This document shows positions 1 through 10,165 of a stretch of 43,651 nucleotides of DNA, piece after piece. Position numbers and translations under genes: made by a program. Where the stretch lies: NCBI GenBank assembly GCA_030537135.1, contig JAUNOP010000019.1, forward strand, positions 1 to 43,651, written 5' to 3'. The notes under the pieces were generated by a model. It was not told where the DNA came from. It did no database searches and saw only the letters and a list, made by a program, of their open reading frames with translations. Each line of letters starts with the position of its first letter. Position 1 is the first letter of the stretch. This DNA is from Eubacteriales bacterium (GTDB lineage: Bacteria > Bacillota > Clostridia > Lachnospirales > Lachnospiraceae).

Positions 1-276
1 TTCCACCTGTTTTATCAATAGTTTTCCACTCATGTACTGCTCTTTCGGGTAGAAAGAGCCACTATATCCCCCATAATAATTGAAAAAGTGTACGACTACA
101 TGATTCTGGCTCAAAAAATCCAATAATTTACTGTTTATGCTGATCTCATTCAGGCAATAAATCTCCTTTGTATTTTCAATCGGAATATATACATTGCGCC
201 CCTCCTTACGAAAGCAAAGAGAATTATCCTTTCTCGTCAGCTCTCCCATAGAAGAAATATATTTTGTGCTTCCCAT
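1..276 (-). CDS. cas1: CRISPR integrase Cas1, N-terminal part (type I-B)
   Basis: Only the first 92 codons are inside the window; the gene continues past position 1. Cas1 forms the spacer-integration complex with Cas2. The visible part reads like the Cas1 N-terminal beta-sandwich: an opening MGSTKYISSMGELTRKDNSL, then a G-R-N-V-Y-I-P-I-E strand, an 'INSKLLDFLSQNHVVVHFF' helix-strand and the Y-Y-G-G-Y-S-G-S-F-Y-P loop. The catalytic C-terminal domain is outside. The start is the ATG at 276, preceded by a GGGAAGG ribosome binding site. It follows cas4 in the same direction after a 197-nt gap, wider than the close spacing elsewhere in the operon. cas2 and the main array presumably lie left of the window (inference). 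Confidence 0.9.
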   Translation of the reverse strand, partial: MGSTKYISSMGELTRKDNSLCFRKEGRNVYIPIENTKEIYCLNEISINSKLLDFLSQNHVVVHFFNYYGGYSGSFYPKEQYMSGKLLIKQVE

Positions 277-367: not shown

Positions 368-493
368 CTATCCGTTCTTTGAAAAATCATTACATAAGCC
401 TTTTTCATACTGTCGAATATGCTTTGTCATCATCATCTGTTCTTCCAAGAAACCTATAAACCTATGTTCTTTGTCAAATATAGCAATATTCAT
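368..493 (-). CDS. possible 41-residue small ORF between cas4 and cas1
   Basis: An ATG at 493 overlaps the last codons of cas4 in another frame and opens a 41-residue ORF that ends at the TAG at 368-370. It begins MNIAIFDKEH, has a Met run (QMMMTKHIRQYEKG) and ends FSKNG. A second frame over the same stretch holds a 25-residue ORF starting MKKAYVMIFQ. I recognise no family. The ribosome binding site is weak. It could be a real small gene, translationally coupled to cas4, or chance coding in a 197-nt gap. Confidence 0.25.
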   Translation of the reverse strand: MNIAIFDKEHRFIGFLEEQMMMTKHIRQYEKGLCNDFSKNG

Positions 494-965
494 AATAAGC
501 ACACTTCTTGCAGCTGTTCTTTCTCAATGCAGGCGGTATAATGTCTCCTGCTATCAATTCTTCTATTTCCGCTATATATTTTATCAGCCTTTCTTCTGCT
601 TCCTCTGTGAGTTCTAGAACTATTGTTTTCTTTCCACTCTTATTCTTCTCTACAAATTCCAATCTTCCCTTTCTATGGATGCCTTTGTCTTTTAATACCT
701 TCAAATAATACAAAAGCTGCCATTTTGCCGCCTCTTCGTCTGCGTCAGATTTCTTAATCTCTGTCAGATATTCTGCTGTCAGCTTATCCAATTTAATATT
801 TTCAATAGCGATCTCTGTATTTTCCTTCTGCGCTTTTTCTTCATGCAATGCTTTTCCTATTTGAACAATCTCACTGTTGTCCTCAAGATTCAGACGGTTT
901 CCCATCAGATAGCATTGTCTCCTGCAATGAAAATAGTAGTTCATTAAAGTCCCATTGACTCTCAT
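474..965 (-). CDS. cas4: CRISPR-associated exonuclease Cas4 (type I-B)
   Basis: Cas4 trims and PAM-selects prespacers for Cas1-Cas2. At 163 residues it has the short length typical of CRISPR-linked Cas4. Visible marks are the N-terminal cysteine (C14, with C18 nearby), an E-I-K-K-S segment matching the nuclease E-x-K motif, the following W-Q-L-L-Y-Y-L helix, and the C-terminal Fe-S cluster cysteines C152, C155 and C161. The start ATG at 965 has a GGAGAGGGT ribosome binding site. It sits 11 nt after cas3, so it is part of the same transcript. Confidence 0.93.
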   Translation of the reverse strand: MRVNGTLMNYYFHCRRQCYLMGNRLNLEDNSEIVQIGKALHEEKAQKENTEIAIENIKLDKLTAEYLTEIKKSDADEEAAKWQLLYYLKVLKDKGIHRKGRLEFVEKNKSGKKTIVLELTEEAEERLIKYIAEIEELIAGDIIPPALRKNSCKKCAYYEYCYI

Positions 966-976
966 ACCCTCTCCTT

Positions 977-3553
977 TTATATAAACTCAACAAACTTTCC
1001 GATTTCTCCCTGAACCTTTGGGCGGTTTAGCTTCCCATTGTCAAAATATTTTTCTCCGTCCCGAATATAAATAATCTCGCCAATCTTGTCGTCATAAGTC
1101 AAATTTAGATTTTTCTCAATCTGATAGATAAAATAGGTCATCAGACTTTTCACTCTCGACAACTTCACCTGTTTTTCAGAATAATCCATTTCGTAATCTT
1201 CCAAAAGCATTCCGTAAGTTCTCCATATCTCCTGTCCACCTATTTCTTCTCCGTTTTCATCGTGTAAAACCCTGGATAAAAATACAGACATGGTCCATTT
1301 ATCTTCCTCTATCAGTTGCATCCGACTGCTTACCTTAGGATAATCCAGTTTTCCCACTCTTTCCTTAAAGAAATCAGAAAGTCCCTCTTCTCCAGTTTTT
1401 CTATTGTAAATGTTTTTTACATTGGTCAGAATCTGTTCATAGTAGGATGGATAATTCTTGTCAATCAATACCTCCCTCATTTTCGGAGTTTCTAATGTAT
1501 ACTCTCTTTCTGCTCGAAGATCTTTTGAATAAACTTTCTTGTAATCATCTATTTTAAAGAAATAAACAACTCCATTTTTCCCAGAAGAACAGGAGCGATT
1601 AATTCTTCCCATGAACTGTTCTTCACTGTCGAGCTTGGAGATATTTTTATATCCTATGTCCATATCAATGTCAACGCCTGCTTCAACAACCTGTGTTGCA
1701 ACCAGAATGATGCCTCCTTTTGCAGAGTCCACCTTCTCAAGAATCCTTCTTCGCTCCATCAGACTGTCATCCCCTGACATATATTCTACATCGCAGGAAA
1801 TGTCCTTATCAGCTTTCAGCCTACGGAAAAATCTCTCTGCTGAATCCTTTGTTATAAATTCCATAAGAATCTTTTTTTTCTTAAGACTCGATTTCTTTAC
1901 ATGCTGCACCAATTTTTCTTCTATATTTGGAGCATTCATAAGTTCAAAGGAAATTTGTACTCGCTCTTTAAAGCAAGGGTGAAGGAAATATTCCTCTCTG
2001 TCCCTTACAAGCTTTACTGCAGGATATGTATCATCAGATAACAAATCAAAGTCTGGAAGAGTCGCAGACATAATAATCAGCTTTATATGCAAAAGATACG
2101 ATATTTCTTTGAAAAATCGTATAATTTCTCCCCAAAGTTTATTTTTATAATTTTGAATTTCATCCAATACTACCACACTGTTCATAAGCTGGTGGAAGCC
2201 AAACGCAGATTCTTTTGTGCTTCCGAACAATGTATCAAATAAACTCACATGCGTTGATACAATCATCGGATAATTTAAAAACTGCCTATCCAGCAATGCC
2301 CTTCCATAATACAGACCCAGCTCCTCTTCTGCTTCTTCTTTCTCCTTCTCTGTCATCTTAATCGGAGTCAGAGAATTAATCACTGCAATATTTTCATAAA
2401 TATCCTCATGACTGCCAAAAATCTTTTGAAGGCATCTTACATTTTGCTCCACAAGGGTGTTAAACGGATAAATATAATAGATTTTCTTCAGACGTTTATC
2501 TGCTCTTATAAGCTGAAAGCTAAGATTTATAGCTGTATTGCTCTTTCCAATTCCTGTCGGGGCTTCCATATAGAACAGATTTTTATCCTGATTTTTTTGT
2601 AATTCCAGCTCTGTTTCTATAAACATTTCTGTCCGAAGCACAGAAATATTCTTCTCTGCACACAGTCTGTGGGAATCCTGTGGATATTTCTCGGTTTGAT
2701 ATGTTCTGATTCTTTGCATAAGCTCTGTGCTTTCATAGGCTTCCATCCATTTTTCTATTTTATCCAGATTTCCCAACTGAGAAATCCTCATTCCCTGCAT
2801 AAAGGATGCCGTCGCATAATAATCTGCTGCCACCAAAACAGAATACAATAGTTTTACATAGGTATACCAGGCAATGCTCTCTTCTATGGAAGCGTTCTGA
2901 TTCAAAACCTCTATTTTTTCTGTTGTTTTTGTGATTATTCTTTCTGTTAGGGAAATCGCCCCCTGATAGGCGCATGGATTATTCTGCAAATCCTTCAGAA
3001 TACTCATACCAATACCATTTTCTAAAGTTCCCAAAAACTCATAAAAGCCTCCGAGGTCGCCGTGGTGTCTGGCAATCACATAAGCATGGTAAACCACCAG
3101 TATTCTGAGAAATTGTTTTTCTTCCTTACTTTTAACAGCCTTCTTCAACTTTTCCATATAATAATCCATATAAATAATCGAGGAGAGCAAGGAGTGTCTG
3201 CTTCCAATACAGGCAAACTGACGAAGTCCTCTGAAATTTTCATTTTGCATTTTCTTGTACTGAAATATTGGATTGATCTTTCCCACGTCATGGAAAAAGG
3301 GAAGTCCTGTAACCATATCCTCCACAAAGTCTTCTGCTTCATTGGAAAGTTTTGGATATACCTGAGCCAGAAAACGCTTTTGAATCTCTGGCATTCCCTT
3401 CTGTTCTCTGATAAAGTCAAAATATTCTGCTGTCGTACACAGATGTTCCAATAACTTTTCTCTTTCAATTATCTTATTTTCTGCGTTTGTTTTGATATGC
3501 GCTTCATATTTCTCAATCTCCTTAAATAAATCTTTAATTATTTCTTTGTTCAT
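977..3553 (-). CDS. cas3: CRISPR-associated nuclease-helicase Cas3 (HD plus DExH, type I-B)
   Basis: An 858-residue single-chain Cas3 that unwinds and degrades DNA marked by Cascade. The N-terminal HD nuclease shows H88-D89 (FFHDVGK), H120, and the ARHHGD segment at 161-166. The helicase follows: Walker A APTGIGKS at 331-338, Walker B DEIQ at 464-467 (the family often has DEVH or DEAH), SATLP at about 496-500, a T-Q-V-V-E-A-G-V-D-I-D motif near 640 and the G-R-I-N-R-S motif soon after. All key motifs are present, so it looks active. The start at 3553 has an AAGGGATAT site. A 159-nt gap with a hairpin separates it from cas5. Confidence 0.97.
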   Translation of the reverse strand: MNKEIIKDLFKEIEKYEAHIKTNAENKIIEREKLLEHLCTTAEYFDFIREQKGMPEIQKRFLAQVYPKLSNEAEDFVEDMVTGLPFFHDVGKINPIFQYKKMQNENFRGLRQFACIGSRHSLLSSIIYMDYYMEKLKKAVKSKEEKQFLRILVVYHAYVIARHHGDLGGFYEFLGTLENGIGMSILKDLQNNPCAYQGAISLTERIITKTTEKIEVLNQNASIEESIAWYTYVKLLYSVLVAADYYATASFMQGMRISQLGNLDKIEKWMEAYESTELMQRIRTYQTEKYPQDSHRLCAEKNISVLRTEMFIETELELQKNQDKNLFYMEAPTGIGKSNTAINLSFQLIRADKRLKKIYYIYPFNTLVEQNVRCLQKIFGSHEDIYENIAVINSLTPIKMTEKEKEEAEEELGLYYGRALLDRQFLNYPMIVSTHVSLFDTLFGSTKESAFGFHQLMNSVVVLDEIQNYKNKLWGEIIRFFKEISYLLHIKLIIMSATLPDFDLLSDDTYPAVKLVRDREEYFLHPCFKERVQISFELMNAPNIEEKLVQHVKKSSLKKKKILMEFITKDSAERFFRRLKADKDISCDVEYMSGDDSLMERRRILEKVDSAKGGIILVATQVVEAGVDIDMDIGYKNISKLDSEEQFMGRINRSCSSGKNGVVYFFKIDDYKKVYSKDLRAEREYTLETPKMREVLIDKNYPSYYEQILTNVKNIYNRKTGEEGLSDFFKERVGKLDYPKVSSRMQLIEEDKWTMSVFLSRVLHDENGEEIGGQEIWRTYGMLLEDYEMDYSEKQVKLSRVKSLMTYFIYQIEKNLNLTYDDKIGEIIYIRDGEKYFDNGKLNRPKVQGEIGKFVEFI

Positions 3554-3712: not shown

Positions 3713-4495
3713 CTAAACGAAAAGAATCTTTTTTCCATCCTTTAATTCATAAACAACTTCGTCCTGCACCCTTACAAACATATTTGTATACACATACGTT
3801 TTCATTATATAATGGTTTGTCCAAGCATCCATTCCACACGGCAATGCTTCCTCATATTTAAATTCCCGGAACATGCCTAATTCCAGCTCTTCTTCCTCGT
3901 CCTCATCCAGCTCCACAAACTTCACCAGGTTTTTTGGAACCAGACAGTCAAGCTGCCCTACCGAAAAGTCATTCTCAACAGCCTCTTCTACCTGAACTCT
4001 CGTGATGTCTGCCGGATGGTCATTTCTCCCAAGATACGGATAATAGATGCATCTATGGTTGCATATCGCCTCTCGTATCTTCTCTGCTTCCTCTGAATCA
4101 ATCAATACACAGATTTCCCAGCAAGGGTTCTCAAGCCATTGCTCCTTAACAACAAGATTTCCACCCTGCTCCTTTGAAGCATATCCAACAGAATTATTAA
4201 AAATTTGTATTTTTTTAGAAATAAACCCTTTTCCTTCTTTTTCCGGCAAAATAGATAGTTTCACATTCTTCAGCTTCTCATAGAACTCAGGATAACTCTG
4301 TGTAAGCTCTGTCTTTTTCTTTGTTTTGGCAAAATCCTGCATCTGATTGTAGCCGTTATATCCCAGAACAGCTCCAAAGAGCCCCAAAAGAGCCACCTTA
4401 TGTATATTTCCATAAGAAAAATATCCATAAGAATTCACTTCAGGCTTTCTAAAGCAGGCATTTTTTCCGCTCAGGGTAAACCTCAGTATCTCCAT
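3713..4495 (-). CDS. cas5: Cascade subunit Cas5 (type I-B)
   Basis: Cas5 is the RAMP subunit that caps the crRNA 5' handle in Cascade. This 260-residue protein has the typical start MEILRFTLSGKNACFRKPE followed by an S-Y-x-Y-x-x-Y-G-N stretch and the Gly-rich LLGLFGAVLGYNGY helix that marks the Cas5 N-terminal domain. The ATG at 4495 has an AGAGGT site, and the gene begins 3 nt after cas7, indicating translational coupling. Subtype assignment rests on its neighbours. Confidence 0.9.
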   Translation of the reverse strand: MEILRFTLSGKNACFRKPEVNSYGYFSYGNIHKVALLGLFGAVLGYNGYNQMQDFAKTKKKTELTQSYPEFYEKLKNVKLSILPEKEGKGFISKKIQIFNNSVGYASKEQGGNLVVKEQWLENPCWEICVLIDSEEAEKIREAICNHRCIYYPYLGRNDHPADITRVQVEEAVENDFSVGQLDCLVPKNLVKFVELDEDEEEELELGMFREFKYEEALPCGMDAWTNHYIMKTYVYTNMFVRVQDEVVYELKDGKKILFV

Positions 4496-4498
4496 CTT

Positions 4499-5467
4499 TT
4501 ATACCTCTTTCAGAGTTCGGATATCATAAAGCGTAATGCCCTCTGTGTCTCCTGCCAGTTCTGTGGTATACGGATTGTAATACACATCTATCTTTCTGAT
4601 TTTTATTTCCAGCGCCTTTATCATATCGATAAATTCCAGAGAAATCACATTTTTGTTCCCATTTTTCTCAAATCGAATATACTCAGATAGGTTCGGAAGA
4701 TATGTGTCAATATCTGTTTCCACAAAAAGGGCAAATTCATTTTCGCATCCAACCTTTGCATTTGTCGCAAATGCGGTGGCAGATACCAGTGCGGTTCTTC
4801 GGAAGTTCTGGTAATCCTCCTCTGTATAACCTTCTGTCATGCCCAGTTCCATAAATTCCTTATAGGCCAGAGGATTAATGACAAACGGATAAAAATAGTG
4901 TGCTTCATTGCTCACGATTTTGGTTCCCAGCGTGGAATTCTTGGCTTCTTTTTCAGCTTCACCTTTATCATCTCCTTTGCCTTCCTTCTTTGCATCACGG
5001 AACGGTGAAAGAATCTGCTGTTCCTCAGGAGTTGTTCCTTCATATTTATTAAACCCCTGTCCTATCTGTACTGCTCCTGTTATCGAAACATTGTAGCCAG
5101 GTTCTGCAAAAGTTGCTCCAAAATTCTTGACATCCACAGCAGACATAAGATTTCTTAGCACCTCTTCAATATTTTTGCACTCCTTCAAATCCTTTACCTC
5201 GAAAATCTGCTGATAGCGTTCCTTCAGGGTTTTCGGAACCAGAGAAGTCTCCCCTTTTTTCCCTTCTCCGGAAATCTTGAAGGACTTGATATAGAGAACC
5301 TTTTTCCCTTCATTCTCCCACATCTTTTTCATAGGGTATTTGAGCGCCTTATCACTTCCAAAGGTCTCCCCCGTACTGATTGTCTTGGGATATCCTGAGA
5401 AGTCAGCGTTCCAGTTCGCCATGATAGACACTATCCCAAGCACACCATATACTCTTTTATTCATCAT
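4499..5467 (-). CDS. cas7: Cascade backbone subunit Cas7 (type I-B)
   Basis: Cas7 forms the helical backbone of Cascade along the crRNA. The N-terminus RVYGVLGIVSIMANWNADF followed by a gYPKTISTGETFGSDKALKYPM stretch matches the family pattern of the Csh2/Csd2-like Cas7 group. The open frame reaches to 5539, but the good ribosome binding site GGGAGG lies just before the ATG at 5467 (a second ATG follows at 5464), giving 322 residues and an 11-bp overlap with the end of cas8b. Residues about 175-200 are a Lys/Glu-rich insertion (KKEGKGDDKGEAEKEAKN). Confidence 0.92.
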   Translation of the reverse strand: MMNKRVYGVLGIVSIMANWNADFSGYPKTISTGETFGSDKALKYPMKKMWENEGKKVLYIKSFKISGEGKKGETSLVPKTLKERYQQIFEVKDLKECKNIEEVLRNLMSAVDVKNFGATFAEPGYNVSITGAVQIGQGFNKYEGTTPEEQQILSPFRDAKKEGKGDDKGEAEKEAKNSTLGTKIVSNEAHYFYPFVINPLAYKEFMELGMTEGYTEEDYQNFRRTALVSATAFATNAKVGCENEFALFVETDIDTYLPNLSEYIRFEKNGNKNVISLEFIDMIKALEIKIRKIDVYYNPYTTELAGDTEGITLYDIRTLKEV

Positions 5468-7229
5468 TTTCTTTTCCTCCCTTATAAATAATATTGTCAC
5501 AGGCATATCCCAGAATAATCTTTTCCTGATTAATTTCACCCTCTAACTCATAACCCTCTATCATAGCCAGAAGATTCTTTACACGCCTGGAGTTATCAGA
5601 AATAGCATAATTATACTTTTTGTAAAGCTGTAAAATCTTTTTCTTAATTACCTCATTAGAGCCTGCATTCAAAAACGGGTTAATAAGAGACTGATTCTTA
5701 TCCTTGGATTTGTTCAAGGAAATCAAAAACGAAGCCATCTGCCCCACTGCAAAGAAATATTCTTCGTCATTTGCCAGAGGAATTACAGTAGATGCTAAAA
5801 TCTTCTGTTTCATAATATCTGTGAATTTGGAAATGGTTTCTGCCATGTTTTTCTCTCCTTTCTTATTTTCCTCTCCTTCTGTTTCGAAATATTGCTGAAA
5901 TGAATACATCAAATTGAGCTGCCATATAGCTCTTTCACGATATCCATACAGCAGAGAATTTTTTATAAGACTGCGCGCTATCTTATTGATTCTGCCGGCA
6001 AATCCTCTGTCAACTCCCTTATTCACCCAGTCAAAAATAGTGTTTCTTGCAAAAAGTATATTCTGCTTGAGAATTTCATTATTGATATTTATTTCACTGG
6101 CTTCTGCAAAATAACAGCCTTCAAGGTAATTAGAAAAAAATACTCTGCTAATCAATGCACCTATCTCTGTTCTTTTATCGTAAGCGCGGTAATCTCTCTC
6201 ATACTCTGGATGACGACAATATTTTATTTCTATAATCTCCTCAAATAAAAAGTCTCTTTTCAGGCGTTTTTGATACTGAACGAGATTATCCTGATTTAAG
6301 ATTTCTGCTTCATTTTTTCCTTTTCTGATTCGAAGATAATAGCCAGATTCTACTTCCTCAGGGCTGTCTTCTTTTGAGAAAGAATAAATCTTTCCAAGCT
6401 TCGTATCTATGTACACACTGTACTCTCCCTTGCATGCCAGGTTCATCAGATAGTCAAAGAACATCTTCTGAAGCATCACACTCTCCCCATCCAACAGATA
6501 TGGTGCAGGATATTTTCGGGTTTTTATAGATAGAAACGGTTTTTTAGAGTTCATTCCTACATTGTTATCTGGAAGCCCATAAACTATATTTTCAATTTCC
6601 ACGTTGTATTCATTACTGTTATAGATATTGGGCAAAAAATAGCGCCGCCCTTCGCGCTCATAGACATCTTCCTCGCCTTCAAAGAAAATCTTCAGATAAT
6701 CTTTTCTACTCATATCTACCTCATGCAGTTGGAAGATATGAGCTTTGATCCAGTTTTTCTTTTCTTCTACTTCTTCTGGATTAACACTCCCTTCTTCCTG
6801 TTCAAATAGCTGATATATTCTGGAAGCCTCTTTTGATTTTGCATATTTTCTCTTTAGAGGGTTCATAAGAATTTCGTAGTATGTGTCAATTATCTCATTT
6901 GTCAATTTTCCTGAAAGAATGCTGTCTTTTTTGACCCAAAAAGACATATAATTATTAGAGTGAATTATTTTTTTCGGATCTACAGGCTTATTCATGGAGA
7001 CAAGCTGACTGTAATAATCATAAAAGCAGATTTGTGAAAAATATAACTGACTGCTGCAGTACAGTTCCTTTGTCTTTTTGTCTACGCGAATTTCAACAGG
7101 CTCTCTGCATTGTCCATCTTTTCCAACTATCAGATAAGTGCCGTCAGCAGGTATATAAGAATCCAGAATCAATCCCATTCCTTTGTCCTGTAATTGTCTT
7201 TCAAAAATCTCTATACATTCCTTTAGCAA
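5457..7229 (-). CDS. cas8b: Cascade large subunit Cas8b (Csh1/TM1802-like)
   Basis: A 590-residue protein in the large-subunit position between cas6 and cas7. Cas8b recognises the PAM and recruits Cas3. Sequence conservation in this family is low. The N-terminal GTYLIVGKDGQ...PVEIRVDKKT pattern, the L-L-D-G-E-S segment near 250 and the gene order support the TM1802/Csh1 type. The start codon is TTG at 7229, chosen because a strong AGGAGGTGATTC site lies at proper spacing and no ATG does. The last codons overlap cas7. The call as type I-B large subunit is firm by context, but the exact subfamily is an inference. Confidence 0.85.
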   Translation of the reverse strand: MLKECIEIFERQLQDKGMGLILDSYIPADGTYLIVGKDGQCREPVEIRVDKKTKELYCSSQLYFSQICFYDYYSQLVSMNKPVDPKKIIHSNNYMSFWVKKDSILSGKLTNEIIDTYYEILMNPLKRKYAKSKEASRIYQLFEQEEGSVNPEEVEEKKNWIKAHIFQLHEVDMSRKDYLKIFFEGEEDVYEREGRRYFLPNIYNSNEYNVEIENIVYGLPDNNVGMNSKKPFLSIKTRKYPAPYLLDGESVMLQKMFFDYLMNLACKGEYSVYIDTKLGKIYSFSKEDSPEEVESGYYLRIRKGKNEAEILNQDNLVQYQKRLKRDFLFEEIIEIKYCRHPEYERDYRAYDKRTEIGALISRVFFSNYLEGCYFAEASEININNEILKQNILFARNTIFDWVNKGVDRGFAGRINKIARSLIKNSLLYGYRERAIWQLNLMYSFQQYFETEGEENKKGEKNMAETISKFTDIMKQKILASTVIPLANDEEYFFAVGQMASFLISLNKSKDKNQSLINPFLNAGSNEVIKKKILQLYKKYNYAISDNSRRVKNLLAMIEGYELEGEINQEKIILGYACDNIIYKGGKENDE

Positions 7230-7241
7230 AGAATCACCTCC

Positions 7242-7934
7242 TCACAGCCACCTATAGTTTACAAACCCGAATCCCCGGCTATTCATCTCAAGCACTCCTG
7301 TTCCCAAGGCCATGTAAGCCAAATCCTGAGCAATTGGATGATTGGAAATATGCATAAGAAATTTGTCGCCCAGTAGTTTTATGTTCTTATATTCTACTGC
7401 AATTGGCACATTATTTTTAAACTCCAGAAAGGTACACAGCAAAAAATTTTCATCAATCCTTTCTCCCCCCAAAAAATTCCACTTTTTTATTAAATTAATT
7501 TTCAGGCGATCCTCAAAATCATCTATTGTCATATATTTTCTCCAATACCCCAGCTCATCCTTCAGGACGGCTGTTGTTATATTGTAAATGTAGTCTATAT
7601 GTTTCTTGGGAATCATACGAATCTCTGCTGTCAGACCTTTCATTTCCTTTGTATAATTATTCGCGCATACCTCAAGAAAATGAGCTGCCATTCTTGCATC
7701 TATTGTTCGTATTGTAAGAGTGTAAACATTTCCTTGTTTATATACCTTGTCCCTTTCAATGGGATACGGCAAATCGTAGACGTAATTCTTGAAAATATTT
7801 TCCTTATGCATTTGTATGAAGTGTTCATTCTTTCTAAAGCTAAAATCTATAAAAGATGTTACGGCTGTCTGTATCCGATTGACAGAGATGTCTTGAAGCA
7901 AATAGAGCTTAAGTCGTATCTGCCAGACTTTCAT
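7242..7934 (-). CDS. cas6: CRISPR pre-crRNA endoribonuclease Cas6
   Basis: Cas6 cuts repeat RNA to release crRNAs with an 8-nt 5' handle. It is 230 residues, the usual length, with a RAMP ferredoxin-like start (VWQIRLKLYLLQDI) and the Cas6 glycine-rich C-terminal signature GTGVLEMNSRGFGFVNY. It is the first gene of the operon, preceded by an AAAGGAGGA site and the promoter at 7967-7995, and followed 12 nt later by cas8b. It would also process the degenerate repeats at 8124-8274 if they are transcribed (inference). Confidence 0.93.
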   Translation of the reverse strand: MKVWQIRLKLYLLQDISVNRIQTAVTSFIDFSFRKNEHFIQMHKENIFKNYVYDLPYPIERDKVYKQGNVYTLTIRTIDARMAAHFLEVCANNYTKEMKGLTAEIRMIPKKHIDYIYNITTAVLKDELGYWRKYMTIDDFEDRLKINLIKKWNFLGGERIDENFLLCTFLEFKNNVPIAVEYKNIKLLGDKFLMHISNHPIAQDLAYMALGTGVLEMNSRGFGFVNYRWL

Positions 7935-7966
7935 GGAAAAATCCTCCTTTCATTTTTTCTGATTTA

Positions 7967-7995
7967 AGAATACCGTAGCTTCCAGAAAATGTCAA
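7967..7995 (-). promoter_or_regulatory. promoter of the cas operon
   Basis: On the minus strand, -35 TTGACA (7995-7990) and -10 TATTCT (7972-7967) are separated by exactly 17 nt. Transcription would start near 7960, leaving a leader of about 26 nt before the cas6 ATG. A very AT-rich block (about 7996-8026), resembling an UP element, lies directly upstream and contains the protospacer-like sequence described at 8004-8028. Confidence 0.8.
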
Positions 7996-8003
7996 TATAA
8001 TAA

Positions 8004-8028
8004 AAATTATATATTTATTTTTTATTGA
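8004..8028 (-). promoter_or_regulatory. protospacer-like site with TCA PAM upstream of the cas -35 box
   Basis: Read on the minus strand from 8025 to 8004, this 22-nt stretch matches the start of the 24-nt interval at 8178-8155 at 20 positions, mismatching only at positions 12 and 18; positions 1-11 are identical. The preceding trinucleotide (8028-8026) is TCA, a PAM reported for some clostridial type I-B systems. A Cascade complex bound here would reach the -35 box at 7990-7995. Both sequences are pure A/T, which lowers the weight of the match. See findings. Confidence 0.55.
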
Positions 8029-8071
8029 GTTTTTTAGTAACACCTCAATTTTCTCTTCAATGTTTCCTGAT

Positions 8072-8116
8072 AGCATGTAGCAAAGCGGAAATTTGTATTC
8101 CGCTTTGCTACATGCT
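8072..8116. repeat. perfect 18-bp inverted repeat between the degenerate array and the cas promoter
   Basis: The arms at 8072-8089 and 8099-8116 are exact reverse complements over 18 bp, with a 9-nt loop. No U-tract follows on either strand. The right arm carries the AGCAAAGCGGA core also seen near 3657-3690 and 35343-35385. It may end or protect a transcript coming from the repeats at 8124-8274, or be a copy of a small mobile or REP-like element. Confidence 0.7.
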
Positions 8117-8123
8117 TATTTGC

Positions 8124-8269
8124 ATTCAAATACATCCTTATGTTATTATTGATTCCAAATAATATAATTATTTTTTATATTCAAAAACATCTTTATGTTA
8201 TTATTAATCCAGAGGTTCAGGGGTATCAGAAAAATCCTAAACATATTCAAATACATCTTCATGTTATTA
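8124..8269 (-). ncRNA. putative CreR-like guide RNA regulating the cas operon
   Basis: Inferred transcript from the promoter at 8276-8304 through the degenerate repeats. The second interval (8178-8155, read on the minus strand) would be the guide. It pairs with the region just upstream of the cas -35 box with a full seed and a TCA PAM, but diverges after about 22 nt. Limited complementarity directs binding without cleavage in known crRNA-like regulators (CreA/CreR). The 5' end would fall within the first repeat, and the perfect hairpin at 8072-8116 could mark the 3' end. Transcription is not shown by the sequence itself. Confidence 0.5.
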
Positions 8270-8274
8270 CGTTA
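8124..8274 (-). CRISPR. degenerate three-repeat CRISPR mini-array (crRNA-like locus)
   Basis: Three imperfect copies of a roughly 31-nt repeat start on the plus strand at 8124, 8179 and 8245, each opening ATTCAAATACATC (8179 has one A change) and continuing with TTATGTTATTATT. The copies at 8124 and 8179 agree at about 27 of 32 positions. The copy at 8245 agrees for about 25 nt and then diverges, as terminal or pseudo-repeats do. On the minus strand the unit ends GATGTATTTGAAT, the style of type I-B repeats whose last 8 nt form the crRNA handle. Intervals are about 35 nt (8211-8244) and 24 nt (8155-8178). The cas6-proximal position and shared strand link it to the operon. Confidence 0.7.
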
Positions 8275-8275
8275 T

Positions 8276-8304
8276 ATTTTCTTAAATCTCATTCCAGCTT
8301 TCAA
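8276..8304 (-). promoter_or_regulatory. possible promoter of the crRNA-like locus
   Basis: On the minus strand, -35 TTGAAA (8304-8299), a 17-nt spacer and a weak -10 GAAAAT (8281-8276, four of six consensus positions). It sits just after the stop codon of the upstream pseudouridine synthase gene and would start transcription near 8269, at the edge of the first degenerate repeat. A weak promoter would suit a low-level regulator. Confidence 0.35.
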
Positions 8305-8314
8305 TCCCTGCCCA

Positions 8315-9178
8315 TTAAAAAGGAGGCTCGCACAGCAATTCTATCTTTTCTCCTGTAAAAGGCTGGACACACACAATCCTCCATGCATGAAGACAGATTC
8401 CACTGCCCCTTCTCTGTCCGGCTCCATACAGAACATCTCCTGCAATCGGATGCCCTATAGAAGACAGATGCACTCGAATCTGGTGCATACGCCCTGTATC
8501 AATGCGGCACAGTACGCGCGTAATACTCTCCTGTCTTTCCAATACCTGTACTCGTGTAACAGCTTCTTTTCCTTCTGGGTGTACCTGCATCTGTCCCCTC
8601 TTTTCGGGATTCTCCTGAACAGGGGTTCTTATCAAAATTTCAGCCTGCTCTATGCTTCCCTCAACGTCGGCAATATATTCCTTGCAGTATTCCCCATTTT
8701 TTCTCTGAGCTGTCAGACGGGAGGCTGCCATCTGATTTTTCGCAAACAGTACAATCCCAGAAACCTCTCTGTCCAGCCGTCCCACTGGTCTTATTCTTAC
8801 ACAAATCCCCTGACTTTCAAAATAAGCTGCTACCTGATTCGCAAGCGTATCCTCATAATGCCCTCCGGCAGGATGGCAGACTAGACCAGCAGGCTTTTTT
8901 ACAGCCAGTAAATCCTCATCCTCATACAGGACTTCCAGAGGCTTCCTCAATGGCAATATTTGCCGGGAGCCAATATTCTTCTCTTCCAGAGGAACCACAA
9001 GAACATCCCCTGCCTTCAGTGTATAATCACACCTCTGCTGCTTCCCGTTTACACGGAAACCACCTGCGCGAAATTTTGCCTGACTTACCTGCTTTTTGGT
9101 GAACCCGGCTTTTGCCCTTAAATATTTCTCAATTGTCCAGTCGTGTTCTGCAATGGAAAATTCAAGCCTTCGTTCCAT
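8315..9178 (-). CDS. RluA-family 23S rRNA pseudouridine synthase
   Basis: This 287-residue enzyme would isomerise uridine to pseudouridine in large-subunit rRNA. An S4-like RNA-binding part (about residues 13-75, KKQVSQAKFRAGGFRVNG) precedes the catalytic domain. The active-site motif is RPVGRLDREVSG with the catalytic Asp near residue 137. The M-H-Q-I-R-V-H-L segment near 230 and the A-G-D-V-L-Y-G ending are typical. It begins 3 nt after the oxidoreductase stop with only a weak Shine-Dalgarno, suggesting coupled translation. Which uridine is modified cannot be read from sequence. Confidence 0.9.
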   Translation of the reverse strand: MERRLEFSIAEHDWTIEKYLRAKAGFTKKQVSQAKFRAGGFRVNGKQQRCDYTLKAGDVLVVPLEEKNIGSRQILPLRKPLEVLYEDEDLLAVKKPAGLVCHPAGGHYEDTLANQVAAYFESQGICVRIRPVGRLDREVSGIVLFAKNQMAASRLTAQRKNGEYCKEYIADVEGSIEQAEILIRTPVQENPEKRGQMQVHPEGKEAVTRVQVLERQESITRVLCRIDTGRMHQIRVHLSSIGHPIAGDVLYGAGQRRGSGICLHAWRIVCVQPFTGEKIELLCEPPF

Positions 9179-9181
9179 CTC

Positions 9182-10165
9182 TTACTCGCAGGGAAAAGTC
9201 ATATTCCAGCTTCTCCGAATACAATCCAGGAGCTTCATTACCTGAAGCGTCGTCTCATGGGGCATCTGAAAGCACTCCAGTTCTCCTCTTTCCAATGCGT
9301 CCCTGCATGCAAGTACCTCATATTCATAGCCTGTAATCTGCTCAGGAACCACATATCTTGCTGTAAGCTCTCTATTCAGATTATAAACGCGGATTTCTTC
9401 GGGATTATTGATATTCTGAACCTCCAGATAGCCTTTTTCTCCAAAGATTACGCCCTCTCTGTCTGTCAAAGCAAGCATATTTGCATGGAGAACTGCCATT
9501 CTGCCGTCCTTCCAGGTCAGAGTAATACTGTCCATGTAATCAATCCCCTTTGGTGAAAATACGGCAGAAGCCTGCACAGCATCATAGTCGTCCCCAAAAG
9601 CCATAAGCGCAAAATTAATCGGATATACCCCCAAATCCAAAAGCGCCCCTCCTGCCAGAGAAGGCTCCTGCATCCTCTCCACATGGGGCAGGACATATCC
9701 CAGATTAGCGGTAAGAGAAGTCGCCTTTCCGATTATTCCTTCTTCCAGGAGCCTGCCAAGCATAGACCTGGAAGGCATATAACGAGTCCAGATAGCTTCT
9801 GTAAGAAGAAGCCCCCTTTCTTTTGCCATGCGCTGAATCTCCTCAGCCTGGGCTGCATTGACTGTAAAAGCCTTTTCGCATAATACATGCTTGCCATGCT
9901 CCAAGCACAGCTTTGCATGAGCATAATGATGAGAATGAGGTGTGGCAATGTAAATTAAGTCCACCTCCGGGTCTGATACCAGCTCCTCGTAAGAGCCATA
10001 AGCCTTGGAAAAGCCATACTGCTTAGCTAAAGCCTGCGCCCTCTCCAGGCTGCGGCCTCCCACAGACCATGCCTGAATTCCCGGAATTTCCTTTTTTATC
10101 ATTCCTGCAATCGTCCGAGCCATAGTGTGGGCAATATTGCCCGAACCTAATAATCCAATTTTCAC
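9182..10165 (-). CDS. Gfo/Idh/MocA family NAD(P)-dependent oxidoreductase
   Basis: A 327-residue oxidoreductase. The N-terminal Rossmann fold begins KIGLLGSGNIAHTMAR (G-x-G-x-x-A type). The diagnostic IYIATPHSHH and LCEKAFTVNAAQA (E-K-P-like motif) follow at roughly 68-105, and the C-terminal GFO_IDH_MocA fold includes GGALLDLGVYPINFA. The open frame extends to 10237, but the GTG at 10165 has an AGGAGG site 7 nt upstream, while the extension runs through a tandem repeat, so I use the GTG. Substrate is probably a sugar or dihydrodiol derivative. No pathway partners are adjacent. Confidence 0.88.
   Translation of the reverse strand: MKIGLLGSGNIAHTMARTIAGMIKKEIPGIQAWSVGGRSLERAQALAKQYGFSKAYGSYEELVSDPEVDLIYIATPHSHHYAHAKLCLEHGKHVLCEKAFTVNAAQAEEIQRMAKERGLLLTEAIWTRYMPSRSMLGRLLEEGIIGKATSLTANLGYVLPHVERMQEPSLAGGALLDLGVYPINFALMAFGDDYDAVQASAVFSPKGIDYMDSITLTWKDGRMAVLHANMLALTDREGVIFGEKGYLEVQNINNPEEIRVYNLNRELTARYVVPEQITGYEYEVLACRDALERGELECFQMPHETTLQVMKLLDCIRRSWNMTFPCE

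Follow-up and report, generated by a model that had tools for sequence, protein, structure and literature searches.

A putative CreR-like guide directed at the cas promoter of a clostridial type I-B CRISPR–Cas system

Upstream of a type I-B cas operon we identified a short array-like unit, on the cas6 strand, whose guide closely matches the DNA just before the predicted cas promoter. This unit lies in a window of 43,651 nucleotides (the whole stretch of DNA analysed), which is one contig (C48) of a draft assembly of 103 contigs and 3.07 Mb. We conclude that the locus is probably a CreR unit, encoding a crRNA-like guide by which Cascade would repress its own cas operon, and put the probability of this reading at about 93%. 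The central proposal of the initial annotation, a CreR-like crRNA aimed at a type I-B cas promoter, finds support in the set of Cas proteins, in the repeats and in the joint change of guide and site among relatives. On sequence evidence alone, guides aimed at the cas promoter of their own locus recur through clostridial type I-B systems.

A mini-array beside a type I-B cas operon

The operon runs on the minus strand in the order cas6b-cas8b-cas7b-cas5b-cas3-cas4, followed by the start of cas1, within which the contig ends. Its assignment to type I-B rests on Cas6b, Cas8b, Cas7b, Cas5b, Cas3b and Cas4b.

7242–7934, minus strand: cas6b, first gene of the presumed operon
5457–7229, minus strand: cas8b (E 9.7e-169; its overlap with cas7 is an artefact of mechanical ORF ends)
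4499–5539, minus strand: cas7b
3713–4495, minus strand: cas5b
977–3553, minus strand: cas3, with HD and helicase domains
474–965, minus strand: cas4
1–261, minus strand: cas1, truncated by the contig end

Upstream of cas6 and on the same strand, the mini-array comprises three degenerate repeats around a 35-nt spacer (S1) and a 24-nt guide.

8245–8275, minus strand: degenerate repeat R1, 31 nt, with the 3' handle TTTGAAT and 0 mismatches to AACATNANGATGTNTTTGAAT
8210–8244, minus strand: spacer S1, 35 nt, without a convincing target
8179–8209, minus strand: degenerate repeat R2, which would give the guide its 5' handle (psiR1 of the proposed CreR unit)
8155–8178, minus strand: 24-nt guide with a match to the cas promoter region
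8124–8154, minus strand: degenerate repeat R3 (psiR2 of the proposed CreR unit)

The initial annotation had described two degenerate repeats here; we found three, together with the additional 35-nt spacer, and its 24-nt interval is right for a 31-nt repeat (a 30-nt repeat would leave 25 nt). The common repeat core occurs with fewer than three mismatches in the whole assembly at R1, R2 and R3 only, and the window's own CRISPR array is absent from the assembly, with no repeat match at fewer than three mismatches outside the unit. In layout and 3' handle the window repeats resemble the array repeats of relatives, such as GATAAACAATAACATGAGATGTATTTGAAT in L033, from which they differ by one extra base in the middle. 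The unit presents degenerate repeats that lie outside an array and adjoin a cas operon, as in CreR. An ordinary array would show conserved repeats and spacers of normal length derived from mobile elements, whereas the guide is 24 nt long, lies between degenerate repeats and matches its own genome.

Searches for a target of S1 in phages and plasmids returned only matches at E of about 1 or worse, and the first 23 nt of the spacer are found nowhere else in the genome that carries it. When TCA was placed before positions 1–17 (ignoring 6 and 12) and up to three mismatches were allowed, the genome held 10 places, including S1 itself, compared with 3 for the reversed control; the best site with TCA had two mismatches, both in the seed. 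A match at 22 of 23 positions in the viral contigs L125 and L126, which are alike over the stretch shown, is preceded by CTT and does not continue, and we regard it as chance. The mini-array could conceivably be a two-guide device, in which the 24-nt guide throttles cas while S1, carried on the same short transcript, directs a second task, immunity or regulation, at a target yet to be sequenced, an idea that we hold to be doubtful. Were it true, a fixed immune or regulatory guide would be tied to the cas feedback loop, or, alternatively, the locus would preserve a step in the passage from an ordinary two-spacer array to CreR.

Guide, target site and predicted promoters

Read on the minus strand, the guide (8178–8155) is ATAAAAAATAATTATATTATTTGG and its site (8025–8004) is ATAAAAAATAAATATATAATTT. 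We confirmed in the sequence that the two agree at 20 of 22 positions, with positions 1–11 all the same, and that TCA precedes the site.

8026–8028, minus strand: TCA, the putative protospacer-adjacent motif (PAM), found at 22 of 22 matches in relatives scored without weights and blind to the PAM
8004–8025, minus strand: protospacer, 20/22 to the guide, with mismatches at positions 12 and 18
7990–7995, minus strand: predicted cas −35 box TTGACA, 30 nt downstream of protospacer position 1
7967–7972, minus strand: predicted cas −10 box TATTCT
8072–8116, no strand assigned: perfect hairpin of 19 bp that stands between unit and promoter (z −9.35; one match in the assembly)

Both matching stretches are nearly pure A/T, and the next best 22-nt matches to the guide in the window, on both strands, reach 17/22 at two places, which would be in keeping with A/T-rich sequences that are alike by chance, next to what is left of a decayed array. 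To set against this, we scanned both strands of 20,000 dinucleotide shuffles of positions 7935–8123. Only 2 of the 20,000 reached 20/22 and 3 matched all 15 core positions (positions 1–17 minus 6 and 12), and none combined the core with TCA. The earlier estimate of a chance match below one in a hundred was, as the shuffles show, a cautious one. The arrangement also recurs in relatives, with guides that are mostly unrelated and a TCA that is constant, and we consider chance an almost negligible explanation.

Across the 3.07-Mb assembly, TCA followed by the guide with at most three mismatches (positions 6, 12 and 18 free) was found at four places, and the promoter site alone had no mismatch; the other three, among them the locus of the guide itself, each had three. 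The DNA of the guide is preceded by AAT rather than TCA, so the guide locus should escape Cascade. Both TCA and TCG are described as functional PAMs of a clostridial type I-B system, weaker than CCN in one species, in the part of PMC8406132 that treats them, and editing work in other clostridia likewise names them as functional (PMC10328091). The window accordingly holds a partial, seed-centred match behind a PAM to the region of its cognate cas promoter, as in CreR, the promoter being a predicted one.

Between positions 7850 and 8420 we counted three promoter-like sites, against 2.8 expected by chance. TTGACA-17-TATTCT, which scores 10/12, is the best of the three and the one directly before cas6; because it is located so that the cas6 start codon follows its −10 box by 33 nt, its prediction as the cas promoter is supported. 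A weak promoter of the mini-array's own (TTGAAA-17-GAAAAT, 8304–8276), proposed in the initial annotation, does not rise above that chance expectation. The hairpin, also noted there, is real and perfect; a role as a terminator in the guide direction is not supported, since the T-run lies on the plus-strand side and, read in the guide direction, the hairpin is not a canonical intrinsic terminator. An Rfam search over 7200–9000 gave three matches with E below 1, all on the hairpin and all below the gathering score. With no unit promoter above chance and the T-run on the plus side, the guide may arise by transcription running on from the RluA-family gene ending at 8315, or from an unrecognised promoter.

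Guides and sites in related loci

To assess how widely the arrangement occurs, we surveyed related cas6 loci. A scan with a single Cas6 protein found no related locus, whereas a scan with a Cas6 alignment gave 77. These, with five further loci and the window, and with two rows dropped, made up 81 distinct upstream regions of at most 1,500 nt each (fewer than 300 nt in two), from Bacillota by record titles and mostly clostridial. Left out were L124 (weak match), L116 (without upstream DNA), the duplicates L041, L043 and L045 as well as L012, L031–L035, L037–L039 and L042, and one unit with a spacer reading N. An array-repeat profile blind to any promoter match located the repeat-like elements; these yielded 60 candidate units, spread over 41 loci, and 171 ordinary-array spacers from 16 loci.

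In a first test, the 15 core positions of each guide were compared with both strands of the locus's own upstream region. At least 14 of 15 matched for 20 of the 60 candidate units, compared with none of the 171 array spacers (two of which reached 13/15) and 19 of 4,800 cross-locus comparisons; 19 of these 20 matches stood behind TCA and one behind TCG. With a threshold of at least 13/15 behind TCA, 22 of the 81 loci matched, the window included. Such numbers bear on the possibility of a self-targeting accident, in which an ordinary spacer was taken from the host's own cas promoter and has since decayed. The normal-length spacer S1 (35 nt) in the same unit would fit that account, but it would need more than 20 loci with the same PAM on the same strand and is at odds with the absence of array spacers at 14/15. 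We find it hardly credible.

Because the first score ignores positions 6 and 12, the second test gave all positions equal weight, was blind to the PAM and required at least 14 of 17 matches on the cas-sense strand among the 60 candidate units. It returned 22 matches, and TCA preceded every one. Mismatches fell at position 6 in 10 of them, at position 12 in 11 and at position 18 in 15; the other positions of 1–15 had three mismatches together, positions 16 and 17 had four each, and the match fades past 18. Within positions 1–15, 21 of the 24 mismatches were at 6 or 12 (binomial 6e-16, a value that serves as a guide only as the loci are related). In type I-B Cascade, as in type I-E, every sixth position is flipped out. 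For type I-E, these positions are described as unpaired (PMC5904413, in the section on this point). The mismatches at 6, 12 and 18, including the two of the window at 12 and 18, would on this basis be an evolutionary footprint of the pairing geometry of Cascade.

The third test used no repeat model and looked for a handle-like 7-mer followed by a 15/15 core that recurs on the cas-sense strand of the same upstream region. It found 17 of the 81 loci behind TCA and none behind each of the other 63 trinucleotides, and added L071, L096, L113 and L123 to the previous 22, for 26 of 81 loci. The combination of handle, 15 core positions and TCA offers a strict signature for finding more such units. Among the 41 loci with candidate units, 19 had no match of at least 13 behind TCA in the first test; they include repeats that adjoin ordinary arrays, and the search without a repeat model recovered two of them (L071 and L113). 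The other 40 loci had no candidate unit, and L096 and L123 were recovered from these in the same way. Near cases were L053 (12/15, TCA), L049 (13/15, TCG) and L104 (15/15, TCG, on the opposite strand and at another promoter).

Guides and sites mostly change together. Each of the 22 guides matched its own site at 14 to 17 of 17 positions, compared with a mean of 7.2/17 when guides and sites were swapped among loci (n=462). L095 and L079, whose Cas6 proteins are 73.5% identical, have guides alike at 5 of 17 positions, and each of the two matches its own site at 15/17 and that of the other at 5/17. Among the 231 locus pairs, L100 and L102, with 97.4% identical Cas6, agree at all 17 guide positions, two pairs (L117/L079 and L070/L061) at 13 and one at 12. 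With one identical guide and two pairs alike at 13 of 17 positions, the matched loci are not all independent. The initial annotation had named, as an outcome that would count against it, relatives in which the repeats persist although the interval no longer follows the promoter. Co-variation of guide and promoter site, a yardstick of that annotation and of our own analysis rather than a published one, is largely borne out in the other 21 matched loci, the window apart. The adverse outcome does appear outside that set, in L067 and in five loci (L036, L040, L055, L060 and L085) whose candidate units lack a match. The guide of L067 resembles that of L071, but its best site behind TCA or TCG reaches only 7/15, and it is apparently a decayed unit.

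Several loci vary in architecture. In L070, RelB/YafQ-type toxin–antitoxin genes (9178–9743) lie between the mini-array and the matched cas promoter, with 987 nt from guide start to site. A protein of the PADLOC candidate defence family PDC-M10B (E 4e-68) is encoded before cas6 in L049 (9528–9989), where the guide (TCG, 13/15) matches a site upstream of its gene; by eye, L030 has a comparable reading frame (627–1085) before its cas6. L121 encodes a small HTH_11 protein, perhaps a second regulator, between the matched site and cas6 (9656–9883). The order is reversed in L110, where the guide unit is downstream of the site, perhaps in the cas leader (251 to 150 nt upstream of cas6). In the region 299 to 97 nt before cas6, L053 has a guide interval of about 35 nt that matches behind TCA at positions 1–5 and 7–14; by eye, this match falls just downstream of the apparent cas promoter, a possible roadblock form.

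L104, from Candidatus Harrysmithimonas galli, differs more. Its guide, some 610 to 280 nt before cas6, matches at 15/15 behind TCG on the opposite strand, and the target is a TATAAT-containing stretch ahead of a 14-codon ORF with a strong ribosome-binding site. By eye, this unit looks like an addiction module of the CreTA type rather than a CreR. The window unit could in principle be of that kind too, a CreA whose guide represses a toxic small RNA or mini-ORF at the same promoter, with repression of cas secondary. CreA and CreR share their anatomy, and the L104 guide, as judged by eye, is aimed at the −10 region of what resembles a promoter before a mini-ORF; in the window, by contrast, the cas6 start codon stands 33 nt after the predicted −10 box. 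We judge a CreTA module in the window to be improbable.

Proposed mechanism and known systems

In 11 of the 22 loci, a promoter scoring at least 10/12 lies near the site, and position 1 of the site precedes the −35 box by 21 to 33 nt. The other 11 have a weaker promoter at an offset of −3 to 51 nt (−10 to 60 searched). For the 10 loci with both a clear promoter and a guide length defined by a second repeat (the repeats of the window being set by hand), the end of the guide is at most 9 nt from the −35 box. The guide interval has a median of 27 nt and a range of 23 to 38 nt in the 17 of 22 loci with a clear second repeat, excluding the window, compared with 36 nt for array spacers (n=167). A simple script, too crude for firm conclusions, detected no terminator ahead of the target in the 21 matched loci that have it downstream of the unit; L104, outside that set, shows one by eye.

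We propose that the unit is transcribed on the minus strand and that Cas6 would cut the degenerate repeats to give a crRNA-like guide of about 24 nt. Type I-B Cascade carrying this guide would pair with the TCA-flanked site that starts 30 nt before the predicted cas −35 box and, to judge from the geometry, its PAM-distal end would abut the −35 box and block RNA polymerase. By analogy with type I-B work in Haloarcula, the site would be repressed and not cleaved, the guide probably being too short and the match too limited to license cutting by Cas3. In that work, 24-nt spacers are reported to repress strongly without interference or priming and 28-nt spacers to cause cutting still (PMC10989794, in the portion on shortened spacers). 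With intervals of 28 to 38 nt, some relatives would need to rely on the limited matching for protection. Repression would be relieved once immune crRNAs take up Cascade or Cascade is disabled, in line with reviews that describe release of CreR repression when Cascade is busy or blocked (PMC12737573, PMC13131331 and PMC12948488, in their passages on CreR). Such a circuit would couple cas output to Cascade load, as the initial annotation had suggested. The feedback would also bear on editing with native type I-B systems, since the available amount of Cascade would depend on it.

The same geometry could be read differently, with the site as a decoy or activating element at which bound Cascade raises transcription or merely insulates it. 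The window site is upstream of the predicted promoter core rather than over it, and the hairpin stands between unit and promoter, both of which would fit such an element. Yet the reported CreR and CreA are repressors (PMC13131331 and PMC12737573, where these treat the two), and the close approach of the guide end to the −35 box, seen in the 10 loci above, points to repression. We regard a decoy or activator as very improbable.

CreRs have been reported to autorepress type I-B, I-E and V-A systems through partial complementarity to the promoter (PMC13131331, in its account of CreR). The window unit resembles them in its degenerate repeats by the cas operon, its partial complementarity to the cas promoter and its type I-B effector, as these features are outlined in PMC13131331, PMC12737573 and PMC12948488; it differs in having an extra spacer of normal length and a third repeat. 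CreA of the haloarchaeal type I-B CreTA likewise has two degenerate repeats around its guide (PMC9458426) and an 11-nt seed match to its promoter (PMC10989794), and the window guide also matches at positions 1–11; the parts of these sources on CreA have it repress a toxic RNA gene, whereas the predicted target promoter of the window precedes cas6. The shortened spacers used for repression in Haloarcula hispanica were 24 nt long, as is the window guide, but were designed crRNAs in an archaeon and not a natural cas regulator (PMC10989794, in the same portion).

The primary paper on CreR is reportedly that of Liu et al. (2023, Cell Host Microbe). As the window unit has those features of CreR that can be examined in DNA, it is probably a further CreR, of a kind already known.
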